32,550 nucleotides of DNA from Parcubacteria group bacterium GW2011_GWD2_42_14 (GTDB taxonomy: Bacteria > Patescibacteriota > Minisyncoccia > Phycocordibacterales > UBA12088), in the NCBI GenBank assembly GCA_000998045.1, contig LCCS01000008.1, positions 1 through 32,550 on the forward strand. The letters run 5' to 3'. Both the position numbers and the translations under genes were made by a program. Each line of letters opens with the position of its first letter. The stretch's first letter is position 1. Under the pieces are notes generated by a model that did not search any database, was not told where the DNA came from, and saw nothing but the letters and a program-made list of their open reading frames with translations. Positions 2,872 through 32,550 of this stretch are shown here, piece after piece.

Positions 2872-5092
2872 TAAAAAAACAGTCTTGTTTGTTGCTCCGT
2901 ACTTTCCTCCACACAGTGGAGGGGTGGAACGCTATGTTTCAGAGATAGTAAAAAATATAGATAAAGATACATGGAATCCTGTCGTACTTACGACAAGTGA
3001 CGGGGGGCAGGATACTCGTGAGGAGTTTGCGGGGTGTATGGTGCATCGTCTTCAATACGACTTTCAAGTATCAAACACACCTTTTTCATTTCAGTGGTTC
3101 TTGAAGGTGCGGTATCTTCTCCGGGATGTAGCACCAGATGTGGTGAATGTGCATATGCCAGTTCCAGGGTTAGGTGATGTGACGGCACTCGTTCTGCCTC
3201 GCGCAATTCCGCTTGTGGTGACGTATCACGGAGAAAGTATGAAAAAGGGTTCACTTGTTGCTGATGTGCTGGTATGGCTGTACGAACATGTACTGCTTCG
3301 TTATGTGCTCCACAGAGCACGACACATCATTTGTTCTTCAGATTCTATACGTCTCCATTTCCTCAAATCGTACATGCATAAAAGTACCACCATACTCCCG
3401 GGAGTTGATACGGAAGTATTTGTTCCCAATGAAAAAATAAAGAACAGCAAGCCAACGGTGTTGTTTGTCGCGGGACTTGGTAAAGGTGACGACCATAAGG
3501 GGTTGAAAATTCTGCTACGAGCTATAAAAAAAGTGCGAGCTGTCATACCTGATGTACAGCTTGTTGTGGTGGGGGATGGTACGAGAAGATCGTACTTTGA
3601 AAAAAAAGTTATTGAACGTGGACTGGAAGAGGTGGTGCAATTTAAGGGGAGACTTCATGGTCGAGCACTGGTGGAAGAATACCAAAAAGCGCATCTTTTT
3701 GTATTGCCGACAAAGAACGAAAGTTTCGGTATGGTTATTGCTGAGGCGATGGCAACAGGGTTACCTGTAGTCAGTACCCAGGTTGGTGGTGTTCCGCTTT
3801 TGGTTGACACGGGGGTCACCGGCACGTTAGTGGAGGTGGATGATACGAGTGCACTCACTGCGGAAATTATTTCGTTCCTTAGAGACCCTGAAAAAAGCAC
3901 TGCATTTGGTATTGCGGGAAGAAAAAAAGTCGAAGAAGGATTTAGTTGGGTACAGCGCGCAAAGGCATATGCAACTGTGTTTACTGAAGCAGAGACGCGA
4001 CACCAGACCATTGCACATATCGTTGGGTATTACCCACCTCACCTCGGTGGTATGGAAGTGGTCGCCAGTGAGGTTGCAAAAGAGCTTGCGCGCAAAGGGT
4101 ATGATGTTCGTGTTTTTACCAGTACCTTGGGGGGGAAAATAGTAGAAACCGTCGAACGGCATAAGAATTACATTCTACGCAGACTACAGAGTAGCGAGTT
4201 TGCACATACGCCGATTTTGTGGAGCTTACCTTTTCATCTTTTGGTATTGCCACAAGGCACCATACTCCACGTGCACCTTGCGCAAGCAGGCATTCCTGAG
4301 ATTGCATTACTTGTTGCAAAGATACGAGGCTTCCGTACAGTGATACATTTTCATCTTGATGTTGAACCTTCTGGGAAACTTGGTCCGCTGTTTCTTCAGT
4401 ATAAAAAACACGTACTCGGTATTGTGTTGCGCAGAGCTGACCGTGTTCTTACCTTCTCAGAGGAACAGAAGGAGTTTATACATACCACGTATGCGGTTCA
4501 GAGGGATGTCATCCACACCATCCCGAATGGAATAGGGTCTGTATATTTTAAGATTATGCATACAAAAAAAAGTGACGTGGTACGCCTTTTGAGTGTGGGA
4601 CGTCTCACTGTACAAAAACGAATTGATAGAATAATAGCAATGTTCCCGCTCCTTACGTTTGACGCAAAGCTTACTATTGTGGGAGAAGGTGAAGACAGAG
4701 AAGCATTAGAAATACTTGCTGCAAAAACAGCTCCTAAAAAAGTAATTTTTACAGGTAAAAAATCACCAAAGCAGGTACGTAATCACTATCGTAATGCGGA
4801 CATCTTCCTCATCCCTTCAGATAAGGAGGGCATGCCTATGGTAGTGCTTGAGGCTATGGCTGCAGGTGTTCCTGTTGTTGCTTCAAATGTGTTCGGGCTC
4901 CGTGAGGTGGTTGGAGGTGTAGGTGAGTTGGTAGATAACCCTAGCCCAGAGTCGTTTGCAAATACACTCAATGTCTTAGTACGAGATGAAGAGAAACGTA
5001 ATGCAATGCGAGAACGAGGGAGAGCTTTTACGCGTGAACTCTCTTGGCCGGTAGTCGTATCTAAAATCGAAGTGGTGTACACAAATATATGA
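2864..5092 (+). CDS. Tandem double GT4 (two complete GT-B glycosyltransferase modules in one polypeptide)
   Basis: Two starts of the fold: 'VLFVAPYFPPHSGGVERYV' and 'IAHIVGYYPPHLGGMEVVA'; two donor-site motifs: 'ESFGMVIAEAMATGLPVVSTQVGG' and 'EGMPMVVLEAMAAGVPVVASNVFG'. Confidence 0.88.
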   Translation: MDSKKTVLFVAPYFPPHSGGVERYVSEIVKNIDKDTWNPVVLTTSDGGQDTREEFAGCMVHRLQYDFQVSNTPFSFQWFLKVRYLLRDVAPDVVNVHMPVPGLGDVTALVLPRAIPLVVTYHGESMKKGSLVADVLVWLYEHVLLRYVLHRARHIICSSDSIRLHFLKSYMHKSTTILPGVDTEVFVPNEKIKNSKPTVLFVAGLGKGDDHKGLKILLRAIKKVRAVIPDVQLVVVGDGTRRSYFEKKVIERGLEEVVQFKGRLHGRALVEEYQKAHLFVLPTKNESFGMVIAEAMATGLPVVSTQVGGVPLLVDTGVTGTLVEVDDTSALTAEIISFLRDPEKSTAFGIAGRKKVEEGFSWVQRAKAYATVFTEAETRHQTIAHIVGYYPPHLGGMEVVASEVAKELARKGYDVRVFTSTLGGKIVETVERHKNYILRRLQSSEFAHTPILWSLPFHLLVLPQGTILHVHLAQAGIPEIALLVAKIRGFRTVIHFHLDVEPSGKLGPLFLQYKKHVLGIVLRRADRVLTFSEEQKEFIHTTYAVQRDVIHTIPNGIGSVYFKIMHTKKSDVVRLLSVGRLTVQKRIDRIIAMFPLLTFDAKLTIVGEGEDREALEILAAKTAPKKVIFTGKKSPKQVRNHYRNADIFLIPSDKEGMPMVVLEAMAAGVPVVASNVFGLREVVGGVGELVDNPSPESFANTLNVLVRDEEKRNAMRERGRAFTRELSWPVVVSKIEVVYTNI

Positions 5093-7485
5093 GCATACGA
5101 GAATTACGTGTTACAAAAAAAACATTTCTTCACGTAAGTGTTGCGTGGATGGTTTTGTTTGTGTTGCTTGCAAGTACCTCGCTTAATCCATTCGGAATTC
5201 TATACCTTGTCGGTATTCCACTCATGGTATTTTTTCCTGGGTACCTCACGGTTTTGATGCTACCTCTCGACAAACTCAATAGTGCCTCGCGCACAGTTTT
5301 TTCTGTAGGGTTGAGTATCCTATGGCTTCTTACGATAGGTTTGTTTGGAAACTGGGTTTTGCCGTATCTCTCAGTAGATCGCCCACTAGATACAGCATCT
5401 ATTCTTTTTGAGATGGTGGTGCTCATAGGCACGCTTGTATATATGGTATATCAGAGATTTACTCCTCGGTTCATAACCGTACCTCGCTATGTAGTAGGAC
5501 ACACACGTTTTGATGTGGTCGTAGTGTGCATAGCAGGCGCTTTTTTTGTTCTCAGTATTGTAGGACCACTTCGTCTCAACAATGGAGGAGGGAATGAGTA
5601 TGTTATGGCACTTCTCTTTGGACTATCCCTTTTCAGTGTATACCTGTTTCGAAATGCAGAGAGAGTAAGTACCAACGTGCTACCCTTCCTCATCTATCTC
5701 GTCTCCCTTGCGTTACTTCTCATGACTTCGCTTCGAGGGTGGTTTATTTCAGGTCATGATATTCAGCGTGAGTTTTTTGTGTTTCAACTTGCCAAAAACG
5801 CGGGACTCTGGAGCCATTCCATGTATGTCGATGCATACAATGCATGTCTCTCTATTACGATACTACCTACCATGCTTGCTAATGCTTTGCATGTACCCGA
5901 TGTGTATGTGTATAAGGTTGTTTTTCAGATGATTTTTGCACTCGTAGCGGTTATCGTTTTTCTCCTTAGTCGAAAATGGTTAGAACAAAAAACAGCGGTG
6001 CTTGCAACTCTCTTCTTTGTCATATTCCCAACCTTCTTTCAAGATATGCCTTTTCTTGTGCGCCAAGAGATAGCATTCCTCTTTTTTGGGCTCATGCTTC
6101 TCGTGCTCTTTGAGGAAGCAATAGTGCTCTGGCTTCGGCAGGCAATCTTTATGTGTATGGGAATAGGAGTTATTTTGTCCCACTACTCTACGACATACAC
6201 GGTACTGTTTATCTTTGGGTTGGTAAGTATCTCTATGGTGTTTTTAGCTAAGACGGGGGTAGGTGCTGCACGTACCTTGGCACGTATCTCACCTGCAAAT
6301 GTGCAATTCTTCTCACAGAAAAAAATAACCGTAACCATGGTGACCGTTCTCTTTCTGCTCAGTGTGCTTTGGACTAGTGTCATCACTGACACTGACGGAC
6401 ACGTCAAAGAGGTCGCAGGTAATATTTGGTACGCGATTCAAGGAGGTTTTGATGGGAGCGCACATTCTCCTGATGTGTTTGTCTTCTTTACATTTTCTCG
6501 AGGCACCACGCACAAAACCCTTCCAGAGTATGTGAGTACTGTAGTCAACGAGATGCGCGAAGAAAATCCTGATAGGTACTATGCTTCAAGTACATATGAA
6601 ATGTATCGGTTCTCTCCGAGAGTAGAGCAAGAAGTCCCTCCTACCGCACTTGGTGCGGTAGCTTTTGGTAGCATACCCCTTGGTGAGCTTGTCATTAGCT
6701 TTGGAAAAGTATTGGCGAAGGTGATGCAGGTGACTGTGCCTATAGGATTGCTCTTCGTGCTCTTTCGTAAAAAATGGATACGAAATGTGGACGGGGAGAT
6801 GTATTTACTGGCTGTGTATAGTATCGTGTTTATCGTGCTCTGTATCGTGGTACCTCTGCTTTCACGAGAGTACGGCGTGTTCCGCGCTATGCAACAATCC
6901 ATGTTTGTTTTAGCTCCTTTTATGGTGGTTGGTACGCTTGTAGTCGCAAAAGGTTTTGCATGGATAGCAGAATGGTGGTTCGCATTGTTTAAACTCACTC
7001 CTCGACAGATAGATACTGAGTACGTGTTTCGCTTCTCGGGACTTCTGATGATTCTTTTCTTTCTGTATGCGACAGGTTTCTTGACCCAGCTGGTGGGAGG
7101 CAATATCCCTGCAGTACATCTCAACAACCTGGGAAATGATTTTGACCACTATGTCGTTACTCCTGATGAAGCAGTTGCTATTGAGTGGCTGGAAAGCAGG
7201 GTGGAAGAAGACCGAAAACGTACTGGCATGGTGCCTCTCATACATGCTGATAGGTTTGGTAAAAAGAAGCTGGAAGCGGTAGTTGAGACGCCAATTTCAG
7301 GAGATATTTTTCCCGGAAGTATTCAGAAAGATGCATATGTTTTTGTCGGACCCGCAGTGCTCAAGGGAAGAGTCGCAGTCCTTATGTATGATGGAGATTT
7401 GTTGCGGTATGAGTATCCTGTAGAGTTTCTGGAAAAAAACAAAGAAGTGGTGTTTAGAAACGCTACGGTTCGTATATATAAGTAG
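5089..7485 (+). CDS. Large multi-pass membrane protein, possibly DUF2206/GT39-like
   Basis: About a dozen hydrophobic segments and a soluble C-terminus; overlaps the upstream stop by 4 nt and lies in a GT cluster. Family assignment is tentative. Confidence 0.65.
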   Translation: MSIRELRVTKKTFLHVSVAWMVLFVLLASTSLNPFGILYLVGIPLMVFFPGYLTVLMLPLDKLNSASRTVFSVGLSILWLLTIGLFGNWVLPYLSVDRPLDTASILFEMVVLIGTLVYMVYQRFTPRFITVPRYVVGHTRFDVVVVCIAGAFFVLSIVGPLRLNNGGGNEYVMALLFGLSLFSVYLFRNAERVSTNVLPFLIYLVSLALLLMTSLRGWFISGHDIQREFFVFQLAKNAGLWSHSMYVDAYNACLSITILPTMLANALHVPDVYVYKVVFQMIFALVAVIVFLLSRKWLEQKTAVLATLFFVIFPTFFQDMPFLVRQEIAFLFFGLMLLVLFEEAIVLWLRQAIFMCMGIGVILSHYSTTYTVLFIFGLVSISMVFLAKTGVGAARTLARISPANVQFFSQKKITVTMVTVLFLLSVLWTSVITDTDGHVKEVAGNIWYAIQGGFDGSAHSPDVFVFFTFSRGTTHKTLPEYVSTVVNEMREENPDRYYASSTYEMYRFSPRVEQEVPPTALGAVAFGSIPLGELVISFGKVLAKVMQVTVPIGLLFVLFRKKWIRNVDGEMYLLAVYSIVFIVLCIVVPLLSREYGVFRAMQQSMFVLAPFMVVGTLVVAKGFAWIAEWWFALFKLTPRQIDTEYVFRFSGLLMILFFLYATGFLTQLVGGNIPAVHLNNLGNDFDHYVVTPDEAVAIEWLESRVEEDRKRTGMVPLIHADRFGKKKLEAVVETPISGDIFPGSIQKDAYVFVGPAVLKGRVAVLMYDGDLLRYEYPVEFLEKNKEVVFRNATVRIYK

Positions 7486-16187: not shown

Positions 16188-19106
16188 TTAGAACGGTAGC
16201 CAGGAGAATGAAGAGGTGATTCGGTTACGTACAGTACTCCAGAGACCTCGTGTCGATGGTGAAGCGAATGACTCACTTACCGCAGCCACCTGTGTTGGTT
16301 TCGGTGTAGGAGGTGTTACGTCCTCATCGCGTATAGGTTCTGACTCTACAGCCACGGCGATGTGTGTCGAAGGTTCGGTCTCAGTAGGGGCTACACCAAA
16401 CCGTTCAAATTCTTCCTCGGGAATGTCGATTCTTCTTTCTATGAAGTTTCGCGTACGAGTTTTAAATTCTTCTATTTCGTTTTTCTGTTCATCAGTAAGA
16501 GAGAAGTCTAAGTCACTGCACCATATCTCATTGATTTTTTTCTGTGTTGTGAAGTATACGTATCCTGATGGAGTCGTCATGCCCCATGGTGCGAGTACTG
16601 TATCTGCATAGCGCACTTGGAAGTCGCGGACAGCATTGTAGGTATCCTCGTCATACGTGTTGTTTATGGTGAGGTTCTTAAATCCCTCAATGGTTCGCAA
16701 GAAGAATTGCAACTTTCCAACTTCTTGAGGATTGTTATTCTCATCGAGGTACTTAATGTATGTCGTAAGGAGAGGTGAGCACACTTTTGGTGTTACCTCT
16801 TCTTCATTAGCACTTACACGCACTGCTACCGAAGCGACAGGGGAGTCTACGGCATTTCCAAGACTGTGCTCGTAGTCGGGATGTCTGTCAGTGCCCGAGA
16901 TAAATGCTTTGTTGGTGTACACTCCAGGGGTGGTAGACCCATTAAAGAACGCGTCGTAGGAAACTACGATAGTTTCGTGACTTTTAATGACATCAAGCCC
17001 CCATCTCTGCTCATGCACCGGTTTGCCCGCCTCATCATAAATGGTATCAATCAACAGTGCATTGTAGACGGGGTCGCCCTTGTTGGTAATAGTTATTTCA
17101 TACGTGACGGAGCTAGACGCGAGTACGGTCTCTTGATCGGCGGTTTTTGTAATAGTGAGTTTTGCTGGTCCAAGTCGCAGTGCTCCACCACCTACATAGC
17201 CGAGTGTGGTGACACCGATAACCTCACGGTTGTTTGCTTCATCTGCGTCTTCTTCCTCACTATCTACTTCAAATTCTGTGGTAACGGTAGTTTGTGGAGA
17301 TACCGAACCGGAGAGACAGACAGGAAGAATAACTACAGAAGTATCTCCCGCATCAAGGTCGCCAACGTTATACCGTAGCTGACTACCTGTGCTCGTGCCG
17401 TTACCTGCAGATATTTCAATTGTTTGTTGATTTTTGTTGTAGACACCGCTCAATATAACATCGCTCGCATCACCGTCACCTAGGTTGTTGATGGTTACCT
17501 CATACGAGAAGCATGAACCACCTTGAAGCGCCCCTGAGTCAAGCGCACGCGTACCTACCCAGAGGTCTGGCTGTCCAAAGGTGATGTTGCCACTCCAGTC
17601 TCCAAAGATGTTAAAAATAGCAAGTACCCAGTTGCGACCGAGGACGTTTGTGTTTACCACGTTCACTATGTTTGCGGCAGCGGTTGCATCGCCTGTTTTT
17701 ATCGTGGCGTCACCATCAGCTGCTACTTCGTTATCGCCAGTGAGCGCAAATACTGACACGTTATTGTTAATTTCCGCAGTATTGTTGTTGGTAACAGTAA
17801 GGTTGTCGGTACTTCCCGCTGGGGTGGTAGCGAATCCTGACTCATCAAAGAAAATCTCGACTCCATCGGCTGTTTCTCGCCAGCTCATACCTTGAGGGAG
17901 GCCAAAGATTTCACCTGCCCAGTCACCATGAATGCGGAAGAGAAGGGAAAGGGAATTGCCAAAGATATTTTGATTCACCTTGTTTACTACGGTTGCGTTT
18001 GAAACAGCGTTACCTGTTTCAATAGAAGCTTGTGATCCTGAAGCGGTATTTCCTCCAGTGTCGGCCCCCACCGTGGTAGAGGAAGTAATGTTTGAAGTAT
18101 TGTTGTTGGTTACGGTCGTCTGACTACCCACTGCAGGGTTGCTCCCTTGTGCGAGCAGTTCGTTAAACCAGTCAGCGCCAGGGAAGATAATGTTACCTGT
18201 ACCAGCGTCGAAGTTGTTGACAGTCATGAGGAGATAGTTGCTGTCGGTGATATTGGTATTCACGAGGTTAAGTACGTTTGCCGATGCATAAGCATCTCCG
18301 GTGTGGACTGATGCGTCTCCGGCACTTGCGCTCGCACCGTTGTCTCCCGTGTTTGCAGTCACCGTGACATCATTGTTCACCACGGCATTATTCGTGTTGG
18401 TGATGGTCACGGTTGTCTCACTGTCTGGACATTCCTCGCCTAGGACACAACCTCCTTCTACAGGCGTGTCTCCCGTGAGTACTGAGAACCAGTTGCGCAT
18501 ATCAAGTGAGATGTTTCCGAGGAGCATATTCAAAAAGTAGAACAGTCCTGTTGAGTTAAAAATATTTGTGTTGATGACATTGACCACATTAGTACTACTG
18601 ACCGCATCGCCAGTATGTATCGTGGCAGAACCACTACTTGTGGTTGCGGTATTAGAACCAGTTTCAGCCGTTACCTCTCCTCCAAAATCCACTTCTGCAT
18701 CGTTGTTGTTGGTGACGGTCGTTTCAGAGGTGCCTGTTGCTGTGCCTGTTGCAACTGTAGCATCTGTTTCGTTGGTGTTTTGTGTCGTTGTACTTGTGAG
18801 TTCAGATGTTGCGTTTCCTGTGTCGACAAGTACATCTCCTTCTGCTTCAGGTAGTTCACCGTCTTCACCACCAGTGACTGCATCTTCTGTATTTGCGGTG
18901 GCTTCACCTTGATCACCGTCCTGTGTGGTAGACGCTGTTTCTTCTGGTTGCTCAACCGTTTCTAGAGTTTGTTCCTCGGAGTTTTGTGCATGAACATAAA
19001 ACTGTGTAGTCCCACTGAGTGCAAGGAGTCCGAACAAAAGGACTACAAAGCCCATGCGTAGACGTACCGCAATTCGTTTTTTATGAAAATAGTCTAGATA
19101 GTACAT
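16188..19106 (-). CDS. Large secreted repeat protein: four NTGDN/TGDA repeats, DUF11-like domain, C-terminal peptidoglycan-binding-like region
   Basis: Signal peptide if started at MYYLDYFHKKRIAVRLRMGFVVLLFG (ORF opens at 19190; start uncertain). Repeats such as 'TNNNTAEINNNVSVFALTGDNEVAADGDATIKTGDATAAANIVNVVNTN'; DUF11-like 'LTITKTADQETVLASSSVTYEITITNKGDPVYNALLIDTI'; C-term 'VGKLQFFLRTIEGFKNLTINNTYDEDTYNAVRDFQVRY'. Confidence 0.82.
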   Translation of the reverse strand: MYYLDYFHKKRIAVRLRMGFVVLLFGLLALSGTTQFYVHAQNSEEQTLETVEQPEETASTTQDGDQGEATANTEDAVTGGEDGELPEAEGDVLVDTGNATSELTSTTTQNTNETDATVATGTATGTSETTVTNNNDAEVDFGGEVTAETGSNTATTSSGSATIHTGDAVSSTNVVNVINTNIFNSTGLFYFLNMLLGNISLDMRNWFSVLTGDTPVEGGCVLGEECPDSETTVTITNTNNAVVNNDVTVTANTGDNGASASAGDASVHTGDAYASANVLNLVNTNITDSNYLLMTVNNFDAGTGNIIFPGADWFNELLAQGSNPAVGSQTTVTNNNTSNITSSTTVGADTGGNTASGSQASIETGNAVSNATVVNKVNQNIFGNSLSLLFRIHGDWAGEIFGLPQGMSWRETADGVEIFFDESGFATTPAGSTDNLTVTNNNTAEINNNVSVFALTGDNEVAADGDATIKTGDATAAANIVNVVNTNVLGRNWVLAIFNIFGDWSGNITFGQPDLWVGTRALDSGALQGGSCFSYEVTINNLGDGDASDVILSGVYNKNQQTIEISAGNGTSTGSQLRYNVGDLDAGDTSVVILPVCLSGSVSPQTTVTTEFEVDSEEEDADEANNREVIGVTTLGYVGGGALRLGPAKLTITKTADQETVLASSSVTYEITITNKGDPVYNALLIDTIYDEAGKPVHEQRWGLDVIKSHETIVVSYDAFFNGSTTPGVYTNKAFISGTDRHPDYEHSLGNAVDSPVASVAVRVSANEEEVTPKVCSPLLTTYIKYLDENNNPQEVGKLQFFLRTIEGFKNLTINNTYDEDTYNAVRDFQVRYADTVLAPWGMTTPSGYVYFTTQKKINEIWCSDLDFSLTDEQKNEIEEFKTRTRNFIERRIDIPEEEFERFGVAPTETEPSTHIAVAVESEPIRDEDVTPPTPKPTQVAAVSESFASPSTRGLWSTVRNRITSSFSWLPF

Positions 19107-19602
19107 ACGTAAATGTGGTAGAGATTCTTGTGAATAGGCGAGCAAAGAAGGAAGTGTGTTCGGTACTTTCAAACTCTGTCGAACTTTCATTGGATGTCTC
19201 TGTTAAGGTGATAATGGTTGATGGTGATGTCGTGTAGACAACAGGTTCATCGGTAAATGTGTTTGTACCACTCGCGTTTTGTGTAGTACGTGCCTCTACT
19301 GTGGTTGTTGCAAATGATTTCTGGTTGTTGCTTATGACCGTACTTTCAATGCGCAGGTATCCGTCGGTAGATGTTTCGTGAATTTCTTCAACGACTTCAC
19401 CGTCTACTGTGGTTTTGATATCGACAGAAGATTTTGTTTCTCCTGTTACAATCTCACCATCCTCTGCCGTATTGCCACCGCTCCCTGCTCGAACCGTGAA
19501 GTTGTTCTGTACACTTCCTGCCTCTGCAGGTGAATAAACACAGAGAGCAGTGAGCACTAGTAGAGCTATTGTCGCTGCTGTGAATATATAATGTCCTTGC
19601 AT
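19081..19602 (-). CDS. Small secreted protein carrying a minimal copy of the same repeat, C-terminal hydrophobic/basic tail
   Basis: Signal peptide 'FTAATIALLVLTALCVYSPAEAGS'; 'NNFTVRAGSGGNTAEDGEIVTGETKSSVDI' parallels 'NTFSVRANTGDNTANGG...TGDA' of the neighbour. Confidence 0.7.
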   Translation of the reverse strand: MQGHYIFTAATIALLVLTALCVYSPAEAGSVQNNFTVRAGSGGNTAEDGEIVTGETKSSVDIKTTVDGEVVEEIHETSTDGYLRIESTVISNNQKSFATTTVEARTTQNASGTNTFTDEPVVYTTSPSTIITLTETSNESSTEFESTEHTSFFARLFTRISTTFTYVLSRLFS

Positions 19603-19628
19603 GGTACTTGTGTTCGAATTACCCTCCG

Positions 19629-19664
19629 TAAGGTCTCAACGTAAACTAAAGTGTGGAGACCTTA
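19629..19664. other. Intergenic hairpin TAAGGTCTC...GAGACCTTA (9-bp perfect arms)
   Basis: Between the two minus-strand surface genes; no T-tract, so possibly a processing or attenuation element. Confidence 0.5.
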
Positions 19665-19671
19665 GTGGAAG

Positions 19672-19696
19672 GGGAAAAATAATAGATATTTTTCCC
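19672..19696. terminator. Hairpin GGGAAAAATA-atagA-TATTTTTCCC after the Gly-rich gene
   Basis: 10-bp perfect arms just downstream of the stop of 19713-20816. Confidence 0.5.
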
Positions 19697-19712
19697 TCCC
19701 CAGCTCGAAACA

Positions 19713-20816
19713 TTACCGAGTAATTCGTGTTACGTTTCGGTTCGCTACTCGCACAACACTTGCATATGAGTCAGCAAGTCCTGTAACGATTACGCCACCT
19801 TCAGCTCCGTGACCAGCATCGCCAGCATCACCAGTTGAACCAGTGTCGCCACCTTCAGCTCCGTCACCTCCTGCACCACCGTCATGTGCAGTAGCCATTG
19901 CGTCACCCCATCCGTCAGCGTCAGCGTCACCCCCTTCTCCACCTTCGCCTCCGTCTCCACCGTCACCTGCGTCTTCACCACTGGTTCCACTCTCTCCACC
20001 TTCTTCGCCGTCACCGCCGTTTGTAGTGTTGTTTCCAGTTTCAGCTTCGACTTCACCAGAGTTGTATTCCTCATCTGAGTTGTCATTGTTTACATCTACG
20101 TTTGTCTCAACAGGTACGTATGTTTTGGTGTACATCTCCCAGTGATTGTCGTCTATTAGGTCATCACTGCTAGATTCTTCTTCGAAGCTACTTCCACTTG
20201 TGTCAGTGAGTAGTCCATCCGTAGCCCATTCATCAGACTCTTGTGACCATTCTGCAAGATGTCGCTCGTAGTAGTTGTCTGCAGACTCGAAAGCCTCATC
20301 GTACATATCGCTCTCAGGAGTTATAGTTACTTCTGTAAGGTTGTCGTTTATGTCACTGTCAATGAGTACTGTTGCAAATGCATCTCCTGTGGTAATAGAA
20401 CCACCCATACCTCCGTTACCTCCGTTACCTCCGTTACCCGTATCACCTGTGTTGCCTCCCATACCTCCGTTACCGCCTTGTGCTCCGTAGCCACTTTCAG
20501 CAAGGGCTGCAGCACCGTCTCCAGCTGTAGCGTCACCTCCGTCACCTCCGTCACCAGCTTCACCTCCGTCACCAGCGTTGCTTCCACTGTTGCCACTCCT
20601 GCCACCCATTCTTCCCATTCCTCCGTTTGCAGTGTTATCTCCGGTGTTTGCTCGGACAGAAAATGTGTTTTCTACGTACGAGTCATTTGTGTTGTCTACG
20701 TCGACGTTTGTTGTAAAAGCGCCAAATGCCATTGCAGGTGCGGTAAAGATACCGAGTGCAAGAGCAGGAATAAGTGCAGTTGCTGCTACTTTATTCAAAC
20801 TTTTTTTTGTAGTCAT
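19713..20816 (-). CDS. Secreted acidic Gly-rich surface protein with two Gly-rich blocks inserted in NTGDN/TGDA repeats
   Basis: Signal peptide 'MTTKKSLNKVAATALIPALALGIFTAPAMAFG'; blocks 'GDGGEAGDGGDGGDATAGDG', 'GGNGGNGGMGG', 'GDGGDGGEGGEGGDADADG'. Confidence 0.82.
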   Translation of the reverse strand: MTTKKSLNKVAATALIPALALGIFTAPAMAFGAFTTNVDVDNTNDSYVENTFSVRANTGDNTANGGMGRMGGRSGNSGSNAGDGGEAGDGGDGGDATAGDGAAALAESGYGAQGGNGGMGGNTGDTGNGGNGGNGGMGGSITTGDAFATVLIDSDINDNLTEVTITPESDMYDEAFESADNYYERHLAEWSQESDEWATDGLLTDTSGSSFEEESSSDDLIDDNHWEMYTKTYVPVETNVDVNNDNSDEEYNSGEVEAETGNNTTNGGDGEEGGESGTSGEDAGDGGDGGEGGEGGDADADGWGDAMATAHDGGAGGDGAEGGDTGSTGDAGDAGHGAEGGVIVTGLADSYASVVRVANRNVTRITR

Positions 20817-27270: not shown

Positions 27271-29082
27271 ATGTACAAATATAAAAACATGAACCCAGAA
27301 GTGGTTGAGAGAATAGTGTGGGGGATTCTGCTTGGAATAATTGCCGTACTGTCTTTCATGTATATGAATAGACCTAATCAGCGTATTCGCGTTATTGAAG
27401 ATTTAAACAATCCTGCTGAAATAACTCCTCTCGATTCGTCCTTGCTTGAAACACAATACTACCCATCTCCAAATGGTAGTCTTTCCTTTAATGCGCATTG
27501 GATTCAAGATAAAAATGTATGCCTATACGACGTTACTGATACTGATGGAAAATTAATTGATGTCACATCTATTTTGGGATTCAAGACTATATATTGCAGT
27601 TTTGAATCTGGTAAAAATAGTTCTTTTGAAAAATGGGTGGATGAAAATTCATTTTTAATAAGCGAAAATTATCGCACGATGTACTTAGTTGATCTGGTTA
27701 GTATGAGTGCTAAAGCATATGAAACTGGAAATCCGAACTATATATTTCGTGCTGTGAATGAATCATTTGATTATTGGGTTTTTCAAGACGGACCCACAGG
27801 TCCTTATGTGCTTCTAGATTCCAGTGCCAAAGTGATAAAAGTTATTGAAAATAAAACTTATAGGAGTGGTGATGGAGTATTAAACGATAAAGCAAATCAA
27901 GGATTTCTTTTTATTAGCAAAGTGAATAGTGCTGAAGGACTTTCTATATACTTTGATTTTCTACCTCTAGATTCAAAAATTCTTAAAAGAATACTGAAAA
28001 CAGAACCTGTTGAGGTTCCTGCAAGAGGGTGTAACTCGAATGGAAAATTTGAATCTGTTCCTGGTGAAATCATTTTTGTGCCTGGAGATTGTAGTAAGGT
28101 GGCAGATAAATACTTATCTACTGACGGCCGAGTTCATATCATAATTACTGATGATACAATGGCATACTGGAACACGTATGGGAGTCAGAAAAATGGCTTT
28201 ATAGTTACTAATCATCCATCGGACTGGTATAATCGACCTACCACAAATGGCTTATTAATGTCTAGTGACTCAGGTTTTATAGCAAATGGAATCCTCGCGC
28301 CAGGTGCCTATCCTGATGAATTTATTAGTATTGAATCTTACCCTACATCAAAAGATGTGGATGAATATTTTTCTGATGATGTTAACAACAAACAAATAGT
28401 AGAAAAAAAGTATATATCAATCGGAGCACACAACGCACTTTCTACCAAATCAACATATATAGATAAAAATTCTGGAACAAGAAAATTGTATTACGCCGCA
28501 TATATACAACAAGAAGGAAGAATATTATTAATTACTTCAATAAGGGAAGAAACAGCATCGACAACAAAATTTGAAAAAATATTTGATACTGTTGTTGGAA
28601 GTATAAAAATTATTGATGACAACAGTATTGGTGAAAAAGAAACTCTACCTGCAACAACAAGTCAAGCAGTTAAACCAATAGTGGTAACAAATATTCCTGC
28701 AGGTTGGACAACCTACACAAACGAAGAAAAACGATTTGGCTTTGCGTATCCAGTAAGTTGGGACATCTTTAAAAAGAATGACAATGATACTGACAAGTTT
28801 GGGTATGTGAATGTGTTTGGTGATGAGTATGAGTTTACGGCGACATATATAGAACATGGAATTGAACAAGATGGTGTAACCCTTAAACCGATTTCAGATG
28901 TCTATGTATCAGGAAAAAAAGCAAAAGCGTATGAAGCTAGTGTTGATGCTAACGTTGAGGGTGGACTGGAATTAATTGTAGGTGTTGCTAGTTGCAATTA
29001 CATAACATTTTTTGCATCCAATAAAACTTCGAATTCAAAAGACATGCTTTATAAATTAATCTCAACAGCGGTTTGCGAATAG
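27271..29082 (+). CDS. Hypothetical membrane-anchored protein, PsbP-like C-terminal segment
   Basis: N-terminal TM helix 'IVWGILLGIIAVLSFMYM'; C-term 'GWTTYTNEEKRFGFAYPVSWDIFKK...' resembles PsbP-like domains. Start could be 27289. Confidence 0.7.
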   Translation: MYKYKNMNPEVVERIVWGILLGIIAVLSFMYMNRPNQRIRVIEDLNNPAEITPLDSSLLETQYYPSPNGSLSFNAHWIQDKNVCLYDVTDTDGKLIDVTSILGFKTIYCSFESGKNSSFEKWVDENSFLISENYRTMYLVDLVSMSAKAYETGNPNYIFRAVNESFDYWVFQDGPTGPYVLLDSSAKVIKVIENKTYRSGDGVLNDKANQGFLFISKVNSAEGLSIYFDFLPLDSKILKRILKTEPVEVPARGCNSNGKFESVPGEIIFVPGDCSKVADKYLSTDGRVHIIITDDTMAYWNTYGSQKNGFIVTNHPSDWYNRPTTNGLLMSSDSGFIANGILAPGAYPDEFISIESYPTSKDVDEYFSDDVNNKQIVEKKYISIGAHNALSTKSTYIDKNSGTRKLYYAAYIQQEGRILLITSIREETASTTKFEKIFDTVVGSIKIIDDNSIGEKETLPATTSQAVKPIVVTNIPAGWTTYTNEEKRFGFAYPVSWDIFKKNDNDTDKFGYVNVFGDEYEFTATYIEHGIEQDGVTLKPISDVYVSGKKAKAYEASVDANVEGGLELIVGVASCNYITFFASNKTSNSKDMLYKLISTAVCE

Positions 29083-29175
29083 ATTTATATTTTGTTGGTT
29101 TGATGACATTTAGGAAGGGTTTATTGACCACCACGGTAGTAAATGAAAGAATTGAATTGGAAAGAGCGACAAAAA

Positions 29176-29309
29176 CTAACGGTGCGAAAGTCGGGGAACA
29201 AGCCCGCAAACTAAATCTACTCTAGTACTGCAAAGCAGTACGTGCCGTAGGCACAAGAGTAGACTTGGTGTGCGGGTAAACTGGTTGTTGAGGATTGGCC
29301 CCGTTAGAG
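29176..29309 (+). ncRNA. Candidate structured RNA or folded-DNA element with branched tip
   Basis: CCCGCA/TGCGGG, ACTAA/TTGGT and TCTACTCT/AGAGTAGA stack into a long helix (29203-29276) capped by GTACTGC-aaa-GCAGTAC and GTGCC-gta-GGCAC; outer AACAA/TTGTT, CGGGG/CCCCG and CTAA/TTAG. Confidence 0.55.
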
Positions 29310-29367
29310 ACCTAAAACAAAGATGACGTTCTATTTTTACGTCGCTTTTGCTTTGCACAGTAGATAA

Positions 29368-29480
29368 TATTAATGAGGTCGGACCTCATTAATACTCTAA
29401 CGGGATCGGGAGGAGAATTTAGGAGGTCGGACCTCCTAAACATAAGGAGGAGAAATAGTTTGGAAAGGGTGGCTGACCCT
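29368..29480. repeat. Palindromic block A
   Basis: TATTAATGAGGTC-g-GACCTCATTAATA then CTCTAACGGGATCGGG then TTTAGGAGGTC-g-GACCTCCTAAA then AAGGAGGAGAAATAGTTTGGAAAGGGTG. Confidence 0.75.
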
Positions 29481-29534
29481 TCGGCACCTGGGTTCGATTT
29501 ACAAATTATATATTTCTGATAGATTCTGTGACAG

Positions 29535-29798
29535 ATGTGGTTTTGGAAACTTTTCAATGAGAAAAAAATGACCTTAGAAACTTTTCTGAAGCGTGTCACG
29601 TATGCGTGTTTAGCTATGTGTTTGTTTTCAAGTCTATTTCTAATTTTGTTAACGGTATATTATCTGTCTTCTGTTGCAGCTAACGGTGCTGCCACTCGAG
29701 AAATAGGTGCCTGGTTTTTTCCCCGGGCAATTGGAGGATTGTTGTTGCTTATTGCCTCGTACATACCTGGTAAACTATGCAACCTTATCAAACGTTAA
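29535..29798 (+). CDS. Small two-TM hypothetical protein
   Basis: 87 aa with two hydrophobic helices; a start at 29568 (MTLETFLKRV) is plausible; followed by a terminator. Confidence 0.45.
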   Translation: MWFWKLFNEKKMTLETFLKRVTYACLAMCLFSSLFLILLTVYYLSSVAANGAATREIGAWFFPRAIGGLLLLIASYIPGKLCNLIKR

Positions 29799-29815
29799 CA
29801 AAAGTTCTTCAGTAC

Positions 29816-29843
29816 AAAGACCTGCACAATCGTTCAGGTCTTT
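29816..29843 (+). terminator. Intrinsic terminator-like hairpin
   Basis: AAAGACCTG-cacaatcgtt-CAGGTCTTT followed by T-rich sequence. Confidence 0.65.
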
Positions 29844-29870
29844 AGTCTTTATAGGTTTTTTTCAAATCAT

Positions 29871-29900
29871 CACATTAACACACGGTCGTGTACTAAAGTA
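29871..29900. promoter_or_regulatory. Palindrome copy 3 (degenerate left arm): CACATTAACACACGGTCGTGTACTAAAGTA
   Basis: Identical 12-nt core ACACGGTCGTGT and a right arm identical to copy 2. Confidence 0.65.
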
Positions 29901-29970
29901 CTGTTTTTAAAATTATACAAATCTACTTGAAAGGAGGGGAATACTTGGCTTACCCTATTTCTATTCAAAG

Positions 29971-30080
29971 ATTATTAAGGAGGTCGGACCTCATTAATAC
30001 TCTAACGGGATTGGGCTAAAACAAAATAGCTATTTTGTTCGTCCGATAATAATTAGAAGGGGAAGTAGTTTGGAAAGGGT
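29971..30080. repeat. Palindromic block B, diverged direct repeat of block A
   Basis: GGAGGTCGGACCTCATTAATACTCTAACGGGATTGGG, a different central palindrome ACAAAATAGCTATTTTGT, then GAAGGGGAAGTAGTTTGGAAAGGGTG. Confidence 0.75.
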
Positions 30081-30243
30081 GTTAGATTTCGTTTCTCAAA
30101 TACTAGAGCATGAAAAGTAGGAAATTATTGTACCCGTCCCCAATAACTTTGTTAATATACCAGCTTATCATTTACAAATATTATAGTCTTTATTTACAAC
30201 ATGCATTGTGTACTGTGAAAGTAATTAAATTAACAAAAGGTAT

Positions 30244-30281
30244 TTGACATATATAAACAATGGAATATTATGTTTATATAT
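30244..30281 (+). promoter_or_regulatory. Promoter TTGACA-N16-TATTAT overlapped by an 11-bp perfect inverted repeat (putative operator)
   Basis: TTGACA 30244-30249, TATTAT 30266-30271; ATATATAAACA (30249-30259) / TGTTTATATAT (30271-30281). Confidence 0.7.
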
Positions 30282-30307
30282 TAATATGATTAATTATCAA
30301 TACATAC

Positions 30308-30529
30308 ATGGACACAAATAAACTTTTAGAATCTATTTCAAAAAAACTCGGCGTAATAATTGCATTAAATTTAGTATCAATGAATAGTAAAGCAACGGCG
30401 ACCGAAAACATTGAAATGTTGGATCGATTTGGTTTGTCACCTATAGAAATAGCAGAAATATTAAATACCTCAACAAATACAGTAAATGTAACAAAGAGTC
30501 GTATTAAAAGTAATAAAAATAAAAAATAA
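30308..30529 (+). CDS. Small HTH protein (sigma-70 r4-like), operon gene 1
   Basis: 'MLDRFGLSPIEIAEILNTSTNTVNVTKSRIKSNKN'. Confidence 0.65.
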   Translation: MDTNKLLESISKKLGVIIALNLVSMNSKATATENIEMLDRFGLSPIEIAEILNTSTNTVNVTKSRIKSNKNKK

Positions 30530-30531
30530 TT

Positions 30532-30741
30532 ATGGAAAACAAACAACAATATTCACTGCAAGCTCTTGAATTAAAACTTCAGAAAGTTGCAAACCTTATA
30601 GAACATTTGATTGCAGTGGAGATGTATAAAGGTGGGGCAACACAACCTGATGTAGCTGTAAGTCTAAGTATGTCGGTAGGAAAAGTTAACAAACTAGTAA
30701 AAGGGGTTAAGTCTTTAAAAGAGAACAATGGCAAAAAATAA
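30532..30741 (+). CDS. Small HTH-like protein, operon gene 2
   Basis: 'ALELKLQKVANLIEHLIAVEMYKGGATQPDVAVSLSMSVGKVNKLVKGVK'; begins 2 nt after gene 1. Confidence 0.65.
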   Translation: MENKQQYSLQALELKLQKVANLIEHLIAVEMYKGGATQPDVAVSLSMSVGKVNKLVKGVKSLKENNGKK

Positions 30742-30937
30742 AAAACGAGTAGTTCTTACTCTTGAAGAAAAGTTATGCAAAGCAGTTCAAGTATTGTTTG
30801 TATTACACGCCCGTCAGATTGATATGAGTAACAAAGAAATACGAGAATTACTTGGTGGTGATCAAGCAGAAATTGATGCAGTGGCAAAAGTTATTAATAA
30901 GGCCATAAAACGATATGGGAAAAAGGTTGGAAAGTGA
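30728..30937 (+). CDS. Small HTH-like protein, operon gene 3
   Basis: 'TLEEKLCKAVQVLFVLHARQIDMSNKEIRELLGGDQAEIDAVAKVINKAIK'; overlaps gene 2 by 14 nt. Confidence 0.65.
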   Translation: MAKNKKRVVLTLEEKLCKAVQVLFVLHARQIDMSNKEIRELLGGDQAEIDAVAKVINKAIKRYGKKVGK

Positions 30938-31625
30938 GATCCGTGAACATCTTATTGAGGTTCTCGGTTTAACTAAAGGTTCATTGGCCGCACGTATTTC
31001 TGAAATAAAACTTGAACATCCTCAACTTACACCTGCGGCCGCAGCTCAGATGTTTGCTAGACGGAAGAATAAATCAATAATGCGTTTTTTAAACGATGAA
31101 GATAAAAGGACTTTAGCTACGGTTATAAATACTGTTACTTCATCAACAGTAACTTCACGAGTATATAGTGTGCAAAATAAAAAAGTTAAATCGGAACCGA
31201 TCTTGAATTTTCATTCCGAAGATTGCTTTGTTAAAAGACACATACAAGAAATAAATGACACATATCATGCTGCTTGTTACACAGCTACGTTTATTCTCTG
31301 TAGGAAAGTGATGGAAAACCTAATAGTTCAGATACTTAAAAATAAGTTTCCGGAAAACAAGAGTCTTTTTGAAGATACCAAGAGTCGAAGGAACTTGGAT
31401 TTCAGTGTTGTTTTGGATAATCTATATAAAAAACGTACGGAGTTCTCTATTTCTGGCGGAAAGGTGATTGAGCGCATAAAACAAAAAACTACACCATTTA
31501 AAAGTGACGCTAATAACAAAGCTCATTCACTTTTTCATATAGCTTCTCGAAAGGAAATTGAGGAAGCTAACATTCAAGAAATTTTCGACTTGATTATAGT
31601 TGTAATGAAAGAAGTTGGTCTATAG
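30915..31625 (+). CDS. Hypothetical protein, N-terminal 'AAAQMFARR' helical domain + possible HEPN/DUF4145-like C-terminal domain, operon gene 4
   Basis: 'SLAARISEIKLEHPQLTPAAAAQMFARRKNKSIMRFLNDEDKRTL' and 'INDTYHAACYTATFILCRKVMENLIVQILKNKF...NNKAHSLFHIASRKEIEEANIQEIFDLIIVVM'; overlaps gene 3 by 23 nt. Family call tentative. Confidence 0.6.
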   Translation: MGKRLESEIREHLIEVLGLTKGSLAARISEIKLEHPQLTPAAAAQMFARRKNKSIMRFLNDEDKRTLATVINTVTSSTVTSRVYSVQNKKVKSEPILNFHSEDCFVKRHIQEINDTYHAACYTATFILCRKVMENLIVQILKNKFPENKSLFEDTKSRRNLDFSVVLDNLYKKRTEFSISGGKVIERIKQKTTPFKSDANNKAHSLFHIASRKEIEEANIQEIFDLIIVVMKEVGL

Positions 31626-31841
31626 TTTTTCTTCAATATATTTCTGTGCATGAGAAGTGCCAAAACGTAAAGCTTCTTCATCTGAAATTTCTTTATCAAT
31701 ATTTTCAATAAACTTAACAACACCATCCCACCCATTATTGGTTTTTTGCATTACTTCCCACGCGACTGAGCAATGATTCTCCAGTCGATTGTGTATGTCT
31801 ACACAGATTTTATAGCCTTTATACATTGTTTCTTTTTCCAT
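31620..31841 (-). CDS. Small hypothetical protein, convergent with the HTH operon
   Basis: 73 aa, 'MYKGYKICVDIHNRLENHCSVAWEVMQKTNNGWDGVVKF'; stop overlaps the stop of the preceding gene. Confidence 0.55.
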   Translation of the reverse strand: MEKETMYKGYKICVDIHNRLENHCSVAWEVMQKTNNGWDGVVKFIENIDKEISDEEALRFGTSHAQKYIEEKL

Positions 31842-31921
31842 ATTGGCTTTCTTGTTTATATAAATTTAGTATAGCATATACAAAACACATCATTTCTAAT
31901 GCGTCTCGTGCTAGCTCTAAC

Positions 31922-31944
31922 TGGCGGGGTATGTAGGACTCGAA
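31922..31944 (-). other. tRNA 3'-end fragment (T-loop, T-stem 3' strand, acceptor 3' strand, CCA)
   Basis: Minus strand TTCGAGT-CCTAC-ATACCCCG-CCA; the adjacent sequence cannot form a tRNA (no T-stem 5' strand, no acceptor partner). Confidence 0.55.
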
Positions 31945-31962
31945 CTGATTTTTATGGAAACC

Positions 31963-31985
31963 TGGTATGTTCAGTGAACATACCA
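31963..31985. other. Perfect palindrome TGGTATGTTCA-g-TGAACATACCA
   Basis: 11-bp arms, 1-nt centre. Confidence 0.65.
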
Positions 31986-32002
31986 TGGTCCTGTTCGGCT
32001 TC

Positions 32003-32100
32003 GAGGCGAGTTACCGAGTTCTGAGTAACGAGAAAACGAGTTAAAAAGTTGAAAGTTTGTAAAGTTATAAATTTTGTAAAGTAGAAAGAAAGACGAGTTA
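32003..32100. repeat. Intergenic repeat tract, right flank of the accessory island
   Basis: Shares GAGTTCTGAGTAACGAG and GAGTTAAAAAGTT in the same order and orientation with 27011-27100. Confidence 0.8.
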
Positions 32101-32111
32101 GAAAATAAAAA

Positions 32112-32134
32112 CCGACTCAGGGGTGCTGAGTCGG
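32112..32134 (-). terminator. Intrinsic terminator of the minus-strand gene at the window end
   Basis: CCGACTCAG-gggtg-CTGAGTCGG; on the minus strand followed by TTTTTATTTT. Confidence 0.75.
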
Positions 32135-32162
32135 GGAGAGCGTGTGTGCTCTCAGGCGTGTA

Positions 32163-32550
32163 TCAGGAGGCAGATACGGTTTGGGTAACTTCTTTTACTC
32201 TATAACGAAGTGAAAGCAGTGGTGAAAACTCAAGTCGTTTCCAATCAACCTTACCACGAGGAACACGGTAGCCGTCTTTCCAAGTAATACCTTGTATCCA
32301 TGACGCCACAAAGTCGTCACTACAGCCGTACTTGAAGTATGCAACTTCATCAGCACGTACCACAAACTGCACGAGTGGTTTCAAGGTATAGGTAAGATGC
32401 TTTTGATGTCGATATGCTTTGAGCAGTCCAGCGTCGCTGTTTTCTACCTGCGCATACTCGCCAATAAAGTCAGCGCCATCAAGAGCAGTTTCCATAACCT
32501 GTACTTGTACCTTTTTGGTAGCTCCTTCAGAAATTGGTGGTACGTACGAC
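32163..32550 (-). CDS. Hypothetical protein, 5' truncated by the window edge
   Basis: The frame stays open upstream of ATG 32495 to the edge ('SYVPPISEGATKKVQVQV-METALDGADFIGEYAQ...'). Confidence 0.6.
   Translation of the reverse strand, partial: SYVPPISEGATKKVQVQVMETALDGADFIGEYAQVENSDAGLLKAYRHQKHLTYTLKPLVQFVVRADEVAYFKYGCSDDFVASWIQGITWKDGYRVPRGKVDWKRLEFSPLLSLRYRVKEVTQTVSAS

Follow-up and report, generated by a model that had tools for sequence, protein, structure and literature searches.

Near the end of the window, by which we mean the whole analysed stretch of 32,550 nucleotides, three small helix-turn-helix (HTH) genes run directly into a 236-aa ORF, which raises the question of what such a compact operon does. 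The window is the complete contig C8 of a 1.08-Mb genome in 44 contigs. The four ORFs described in the initial annotation were all reproduced in the sequence (Table 1), and its spacing claims proved exact when the ORFs were checked, with a 2-nt gap, a 14-nt overlap and a 23-nt overlap in succession. The promoter that it described is also present, with TTGACA at 30244-30249, a 16-nt spacer and TATTAT at 30266-30271, and a pattern scan of the whole genome returned this site as the only exact match to TTGACA-N16-TATTAT. Neither a tRNA nor an Rfam RNA was detected in the array region. The ORFs are coding: close orthologues differ mostly at third codon positions, with dN/dS of ~0.08-0.13 where dS could be estimated (several dS values were saturated), the opposite of the non-coding pattern that had been raised as grounds for discarding the operon.

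Table 1. Features of the HTH-effector operon, in window coordinates
Feature	Position	Strand	Description
Promoter	30244..30271	+	sigma70-type, TTGACA-N16-TATTAT, read from sequence
Inverted repeat	30249..30281	.	perfect, 11 bp, 11-nt spacer over the -10 element; possible operator
HTH1	30308..30529	+	73 aa, "long" type, sigma-70 region 4-like HTH
HTH2	30532..30741	+	69 aa, "short" type
HTH3	30728..30937	+	69 aa, "short" type
Effector ORF	30915..31625	+	236 aa, last gene of the tight operon
Effector N-domain	30915..31139	+	residues 1-75, basic helical; fold like archaeal Rpa1 AROD
Effector C-domain	31206..31625	+	residues 98-236, HEPN-like

None of the four ORFs scored above the curated cut-offs of Pfam or NCBIfam; PADLOC gave no match, and matches in PHROGs were weak. 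The 236-aa protein has no housekeeping match, an outcome that the initial annotation had said would count against its proposal, and a housekeeping reading of the operon was rejected. GFP matches of the effector in a PDB phmmer search cover one short stretch and were attributed to chance.

Four further array loci, in genomes of different families (G013, G219, G731 and G380), were identified. Searching the order with the 236-aa protein returned a full-length relative in G013 (39% identity), preceded by five small HTH ORFs, and an N-terminal relative in G219, preceded by six. A profile of the N-domain extended the set within the class by one full-length relative, in G731, behind three small HTH ORFs, and gave no further clear relative in the phylum sample. 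With an HTH profile run over 397 genomes of the order, several strong neighbouring matches occurred in only four genomes (the window's own, G013, G219 and G380), and in G380 four HTH genes are followed 7 nt on by a different effector. Gene order is conserved at all five loci, with three to six HTH genes directly upstream of one terminal effector and gaps of -23 to +9 nt; the set comprises only these five loci, the HTH profile having covered one order plus a few relatives. Three of the other arrays have a comparable -35/-10 pair immediately upstream, which was not seen in G731.

The first HTH protein is predicted to comprise a long N-terminal helix and a three-helix HTH (AlphaFold pLDDT 84, from a shallow alignment, as for our structure models in general), with a fold resembling sigma region 4/LuxR-type domains. 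It matches Pfam Sigma70_r4_2 below the cut-off; a sigma-factor identity, which takes region 2 plus region 4, was rejected. An all-vs-all phmmer comparison joined all 17 HTHs of the window, G013, G219 and G731 arrays, 14 of which have their best match in another array. HTH1 pairs with G219_2 (1.8e-25; 59% identical over 71 aa), HTH2 with G013_3 (4.8e-10) and HTH3 with G013_5 (2.1e-6); HTH3 and G013_5 also group in the tree (support 83/72). In a maximum-likelihood tree of 21 HTHs, long and short types separate at a single branch with support 92/98, and many inner branches are less well supported; HTH1 falls in the long clade and HTH2 in the short one. Every array holds both types, and the first gene is long in all five. 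Since best matches lie mostly between arrays, the paralogues are most likely older than the spread of the arrays, rather than products of recent local duplication. The duplicated HTH subunits proposed earlier are therefore supported, and they are also differentiated.

The effectors vary more. Three loci encode the N-domain with a HEPN-like C-domain, one (G219) the N-domain with a C-domain matching the PADLOC candidate PDC-M14B (1.1e-9), and one (G380) an AlbA_2 (Schlafen) protein (SLFN_AlbA_2, 2.3e-19) in which the window-type N-domain was not detected. The G219 match is to the C-terminal part of PDC-M14B and, unlike PDC-M14B, is joined to the HTH-array N-domain. These C-domains differ, yet all suggest conflict biology.

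Signs of exchange come from G013 and G380, whose HTH1-4 are orthologous in order at 58-82% amino acid identity. Their DNA is 74% similar (L008 5420-6304 against L065 1671-2559), beginning some 55 nt ahead of the first ATG and stopping where HTH4 ends. Beyond HTH4, G013 continues with a fifth HTH and a HEPN effector and G380 with the AlbA_2 effector. Upstream, both carry type II restriction-modification (R-M) genes, which differ in type between the two, an N6_N4 MTase plus a MutH-type nuclease in G013 and an MTase plus TdeIII in G380. Because the similarity covers only the region from promoter to HTH4 end, this looks as if cassettes with the R-M genes and the effector had been exchanged to either side of an array that stayed conserved. 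No R-M genes occur in the stretch read at the other three arrays; the window contig ends about 0.9 kb downstream. A regulator-plus-effector module, as first proposed, is supported, with effector swapping and R-M neighbours as features that had been missed. In addition, a tRNA-Thr gene (L065 3570-3644) lies right behind the G380 effector and a tRNA-Glu gene (L025 6640-6715) about 1 kb behind the G731 effector.

The N-terminal 75 residues, a conserved domain overlooked in the initial annotation, are common to the effectors of the window, G013, G731 and G219. Foldseek matched them to 8aaj, 8c5z and 8aa9 (prob 0.99-1.0), and the top match of a PDB profile search was again the archaeal Rpa1 AROD protein (E 0.007). 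The AROD of this replication protein A is acidic, binds an OB fold, cannot itself bind DNA and stands before an OB fold (PMC10122647). The window N-domain shares with it a three-helix fold and a weak sequence match, but is basic (pI 10.5 for residues 1-60; about 10 across the effector N-domains), comes without an OB fold and precedes an effector. The likeness is therefore limited to the fold, and an AROD-like mode of action was dropped on account of the opposite charge. Weak N-domain matches in G554 and G727, whose loci hold no array, and in G315, G617, G677, G951, G961 and G1067, set aside by score alone, were short, with E > 5e-4, and were not accepted.

The earlier suggestion of a possible HEPN-like protein is borne out for the C-domain of the window, G013 and G731 effectors. 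A model built on three sequences adopts the HEPN four-helix fold, with Foldseek matches to 2q00 (prob 0.94, TMt 0.70) and 1wol (prob 0.80), all at E-values above 0.1; the list also holds Csm6, 2hsb, 4nqf, 1ufb and HepT. Relatives of the domain match DUF5677 (3.9e-5) and DUF4145 (0.021), the latter a HEPN family (PMC3710099). Across six divergent relatives, one of them a haloarchaeal plasmid protein, the invariant residues include N114, Y117, R130, E134 and H204. The canonical Rx4-6H motif is incomplete, which had been overlooked: H204 is invariant, whereas A199 occupies the arginine position in the window protein. Some HEPN families keep the histidine without the arginine and may use other basic residues (PMC3710099), so a putative RNase activity is plausible, with catalysis uncertain because A199 replaces the canonical arginine.

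We compared this arrangement with known systems. By TM-score, the best HEPN fold match of the window C-domain is HEPN-T PaREP1/8 (2q00); both keep the histidine without the motif arginine (PMC3710099), but PaREP1/8 is an archaeal stand-alone domain with no detected sequence similarity. HEPN abortive-infection proteins (AbiJ, DUF4145-like) likewise combine a helical N-terminal domain with a C-terminal HEPN-like domain and have relatives near R-M genes (PMC3710099); the window protein differs in the missing Rx4-6H arginine and in the preceding HTH array, which we encountered in no described HEPN system. The AbiJ N-terminal domains (NTD1-5) have no match in the window protein, and among its relatives the archaeal plasmid protein alone matches NTD5, below threshold. 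The HEPN-domain relative on an archaeal plasmid stands beside a DUF1156 protein. An MNT-HEPN (HepT/MntA) pair was not found, since the neighbours in the window are HTH genes and other ORFs, none of which matches a nucleotidyltransferase. The layout is that of a type II toxin-antitoxin system, with genes for small DNA-binding proteins upstream of a putative toxin in one operon. In paaR2-paaA2-parE2 (PMC8630535), a DNA-binding regulator gene also comes first and the toxin last in a compact operon, but with one regulator against three to six HTH paralogues, and with a toxin unrelated to the window effector in any search. Separately, an R-M-like cluster in G250 (L009 240-5437) uses the HEPN-like domain of the window effector: a 590-aa GHKL ATPase fused to a HEPN-domain relative lies between two C5-MTases, with a Vsr-like ORF at 5030-5437 (MTases and Vsr-like ORF named by eye).

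A co-directional operon, a differentiated HTH array, an exchangeable effector and defence-type neighbours at two of the five loci can be read directly from the sequence. On this basis we regard the operon as fairly likely to be a conflict module, spread horizontally and of the toxin-antitoxin or abortive-infection kind. We hypothesize that HTH proteins of the two types, long and short, assemble into a hetero-oligomer, which would bind and repress the promoter of its own operon and would also keep the effector inactive; in the window this restraint would probably act through the basic three-helix N-domain. Such physical neutralisation is less certain than the rest of the toxin-antitoxin reading. 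A trigger such as phage takeover, loss of a labile HTH subunit or breakdown of an R-M barrier nearby would disturb the complex and release the effector. The HEPN version would then most likely cut host or phage RNA and stop growth, while the Schlafen AlbA_2 and PDC-M14B-like versions may be alternative outputs of the same regulatory platform. More tentatively, the loci may represent an undescribed defence architecture, in which a hetero-oligomeric platform of three to six differentiated mini-HTHs, acting as a general sensor and regulator, has unrelated effectors exchanged at a fixed boundary, sometimes adding a second layer behind R-M genes.

The array might instead be a multi-subunit sensor or targeting scaffold and not an antitoxin, its long and short subunits sitting side by side on a DNA site that is long or specific to an invader, and recruiting an effector that acts only there or once the complex assembles on foreign DNA. 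Differentiated orthologous subunits maintained across families, an array that stays while its effector changes, basic effector N-domains and R-M neighbours would all suit such a scaffold. Array sizes from three to six with differing orthologue content would be odd for a fixed scaffold, however, and RNA is the expected target of HEPN and Schlafen proteins; we consider this reading unlikely.

A further alternative is that the HTH proteins are transcriptional regulators only, comparable to R-M controller (C) proteins or prophage repressors, and that the effector stands alone without direct neutralisation. The strong promoter directly upstream, the sigma-r4/LuxR type of the HTHs and the regulator-first order known from paaR2-paaA2-parE2 (PMC8630535) fit this view. 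R-M genes stand upstream at two of five loci, and none was recognised near the window array on the whole contig. One or two regulators would suffice for this role, and up to six differentiated ones per operon are hard to explain by it. Nor is the inverted repeat conserved. The palindrome reported to cover the promoter is present, with arms at 30249-30259 and 30271-30281 matching perfectly over 11 bp; its reading as an autorepression operator carries small weight, because 2.35% of order-1 Markov simulations of the AT-rich upstream region also produce a perfect repeat of this length (gap up to 30), the window holds nine inverted repeats of such length, and none as long is found upstream of the other four arrays. 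Copies of GGTAAT / ATTACCTT in opposite orientation lie upstream of the L008 and L065 arrays, kept between G013 and G380, with the second copy between -35 and -10; this pair is the better candidate operator. Overall, a purely transcriptional role appears distinctly improbable.

The distribution of the module is patchy. The N-domain is clearly present in 3 of 397 order genomes, nine searched relatives from the window's own genus or family lack its effector, and no arrays occur in the relatives of G219 and of G380. The genes at 27271-32495 could not be located behind glyA in three genus relatives. GC, at about 46% before, lies at about 28-36% for most of 27.1-31.9 kb (~5 kb) and then rises again. 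Patchy distribution and low GC together fit horizontal transfer. An effector-only pattern scan of 85,462 genomes gave no match, nor did the effector or HTH1 match any of 50,697 phage records. Where GC rises again, a 24-mer resembling a tRNA 3' end (GTTCGAGTCCTACATACCCCGCCA; 31922-31945, minus strand; single genomic copy, no tRNA called) is possibly an integration-site remnant. While the low-GC stretch, the patchiness, the genes missing downstream of glyA and this 24-mer would also suit an operon serving the regulation or maintenance of an integrated plasmid or prophage rather than defence, that role is very doubtful given that the proteins scanned near the array included no recognisable integrase, replication protein or phage structural protein, that the phage records gave no match, and that the G219 copy lies directly behind a sigma factor gene.

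Other features of the window were recorded alongside. Two copies of a ~100-nt element are present (29368-29471 and 29973-30081), with palindrome GAGGTCGGACCTC and TAGTTTGGAAAGGGTG and no Rfam match. A 73-aa ORF at 31620-31841 (minus strand) has a sub-threshold match to Pfam Gp54, "phage antiviral trigger protein" (E 0.0055). Two ORFs of 1000 and 367 aa at 16188-20816 (minus strand), rich in Gly/Asn/Asp/Thr repeats, possibly encode surface proteins.

If the proposed conflict module is real, small-genome bacteria thought to be poor in defence possess a compact, modular system for immunity or addiction, one that is not named in the libraries searched here. It raises the question of why several differentiated mini-HTH subunits stay together while the effector changes. 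The HTH array may also serve as a handle on new effectors, which would be whatever gene comes next.
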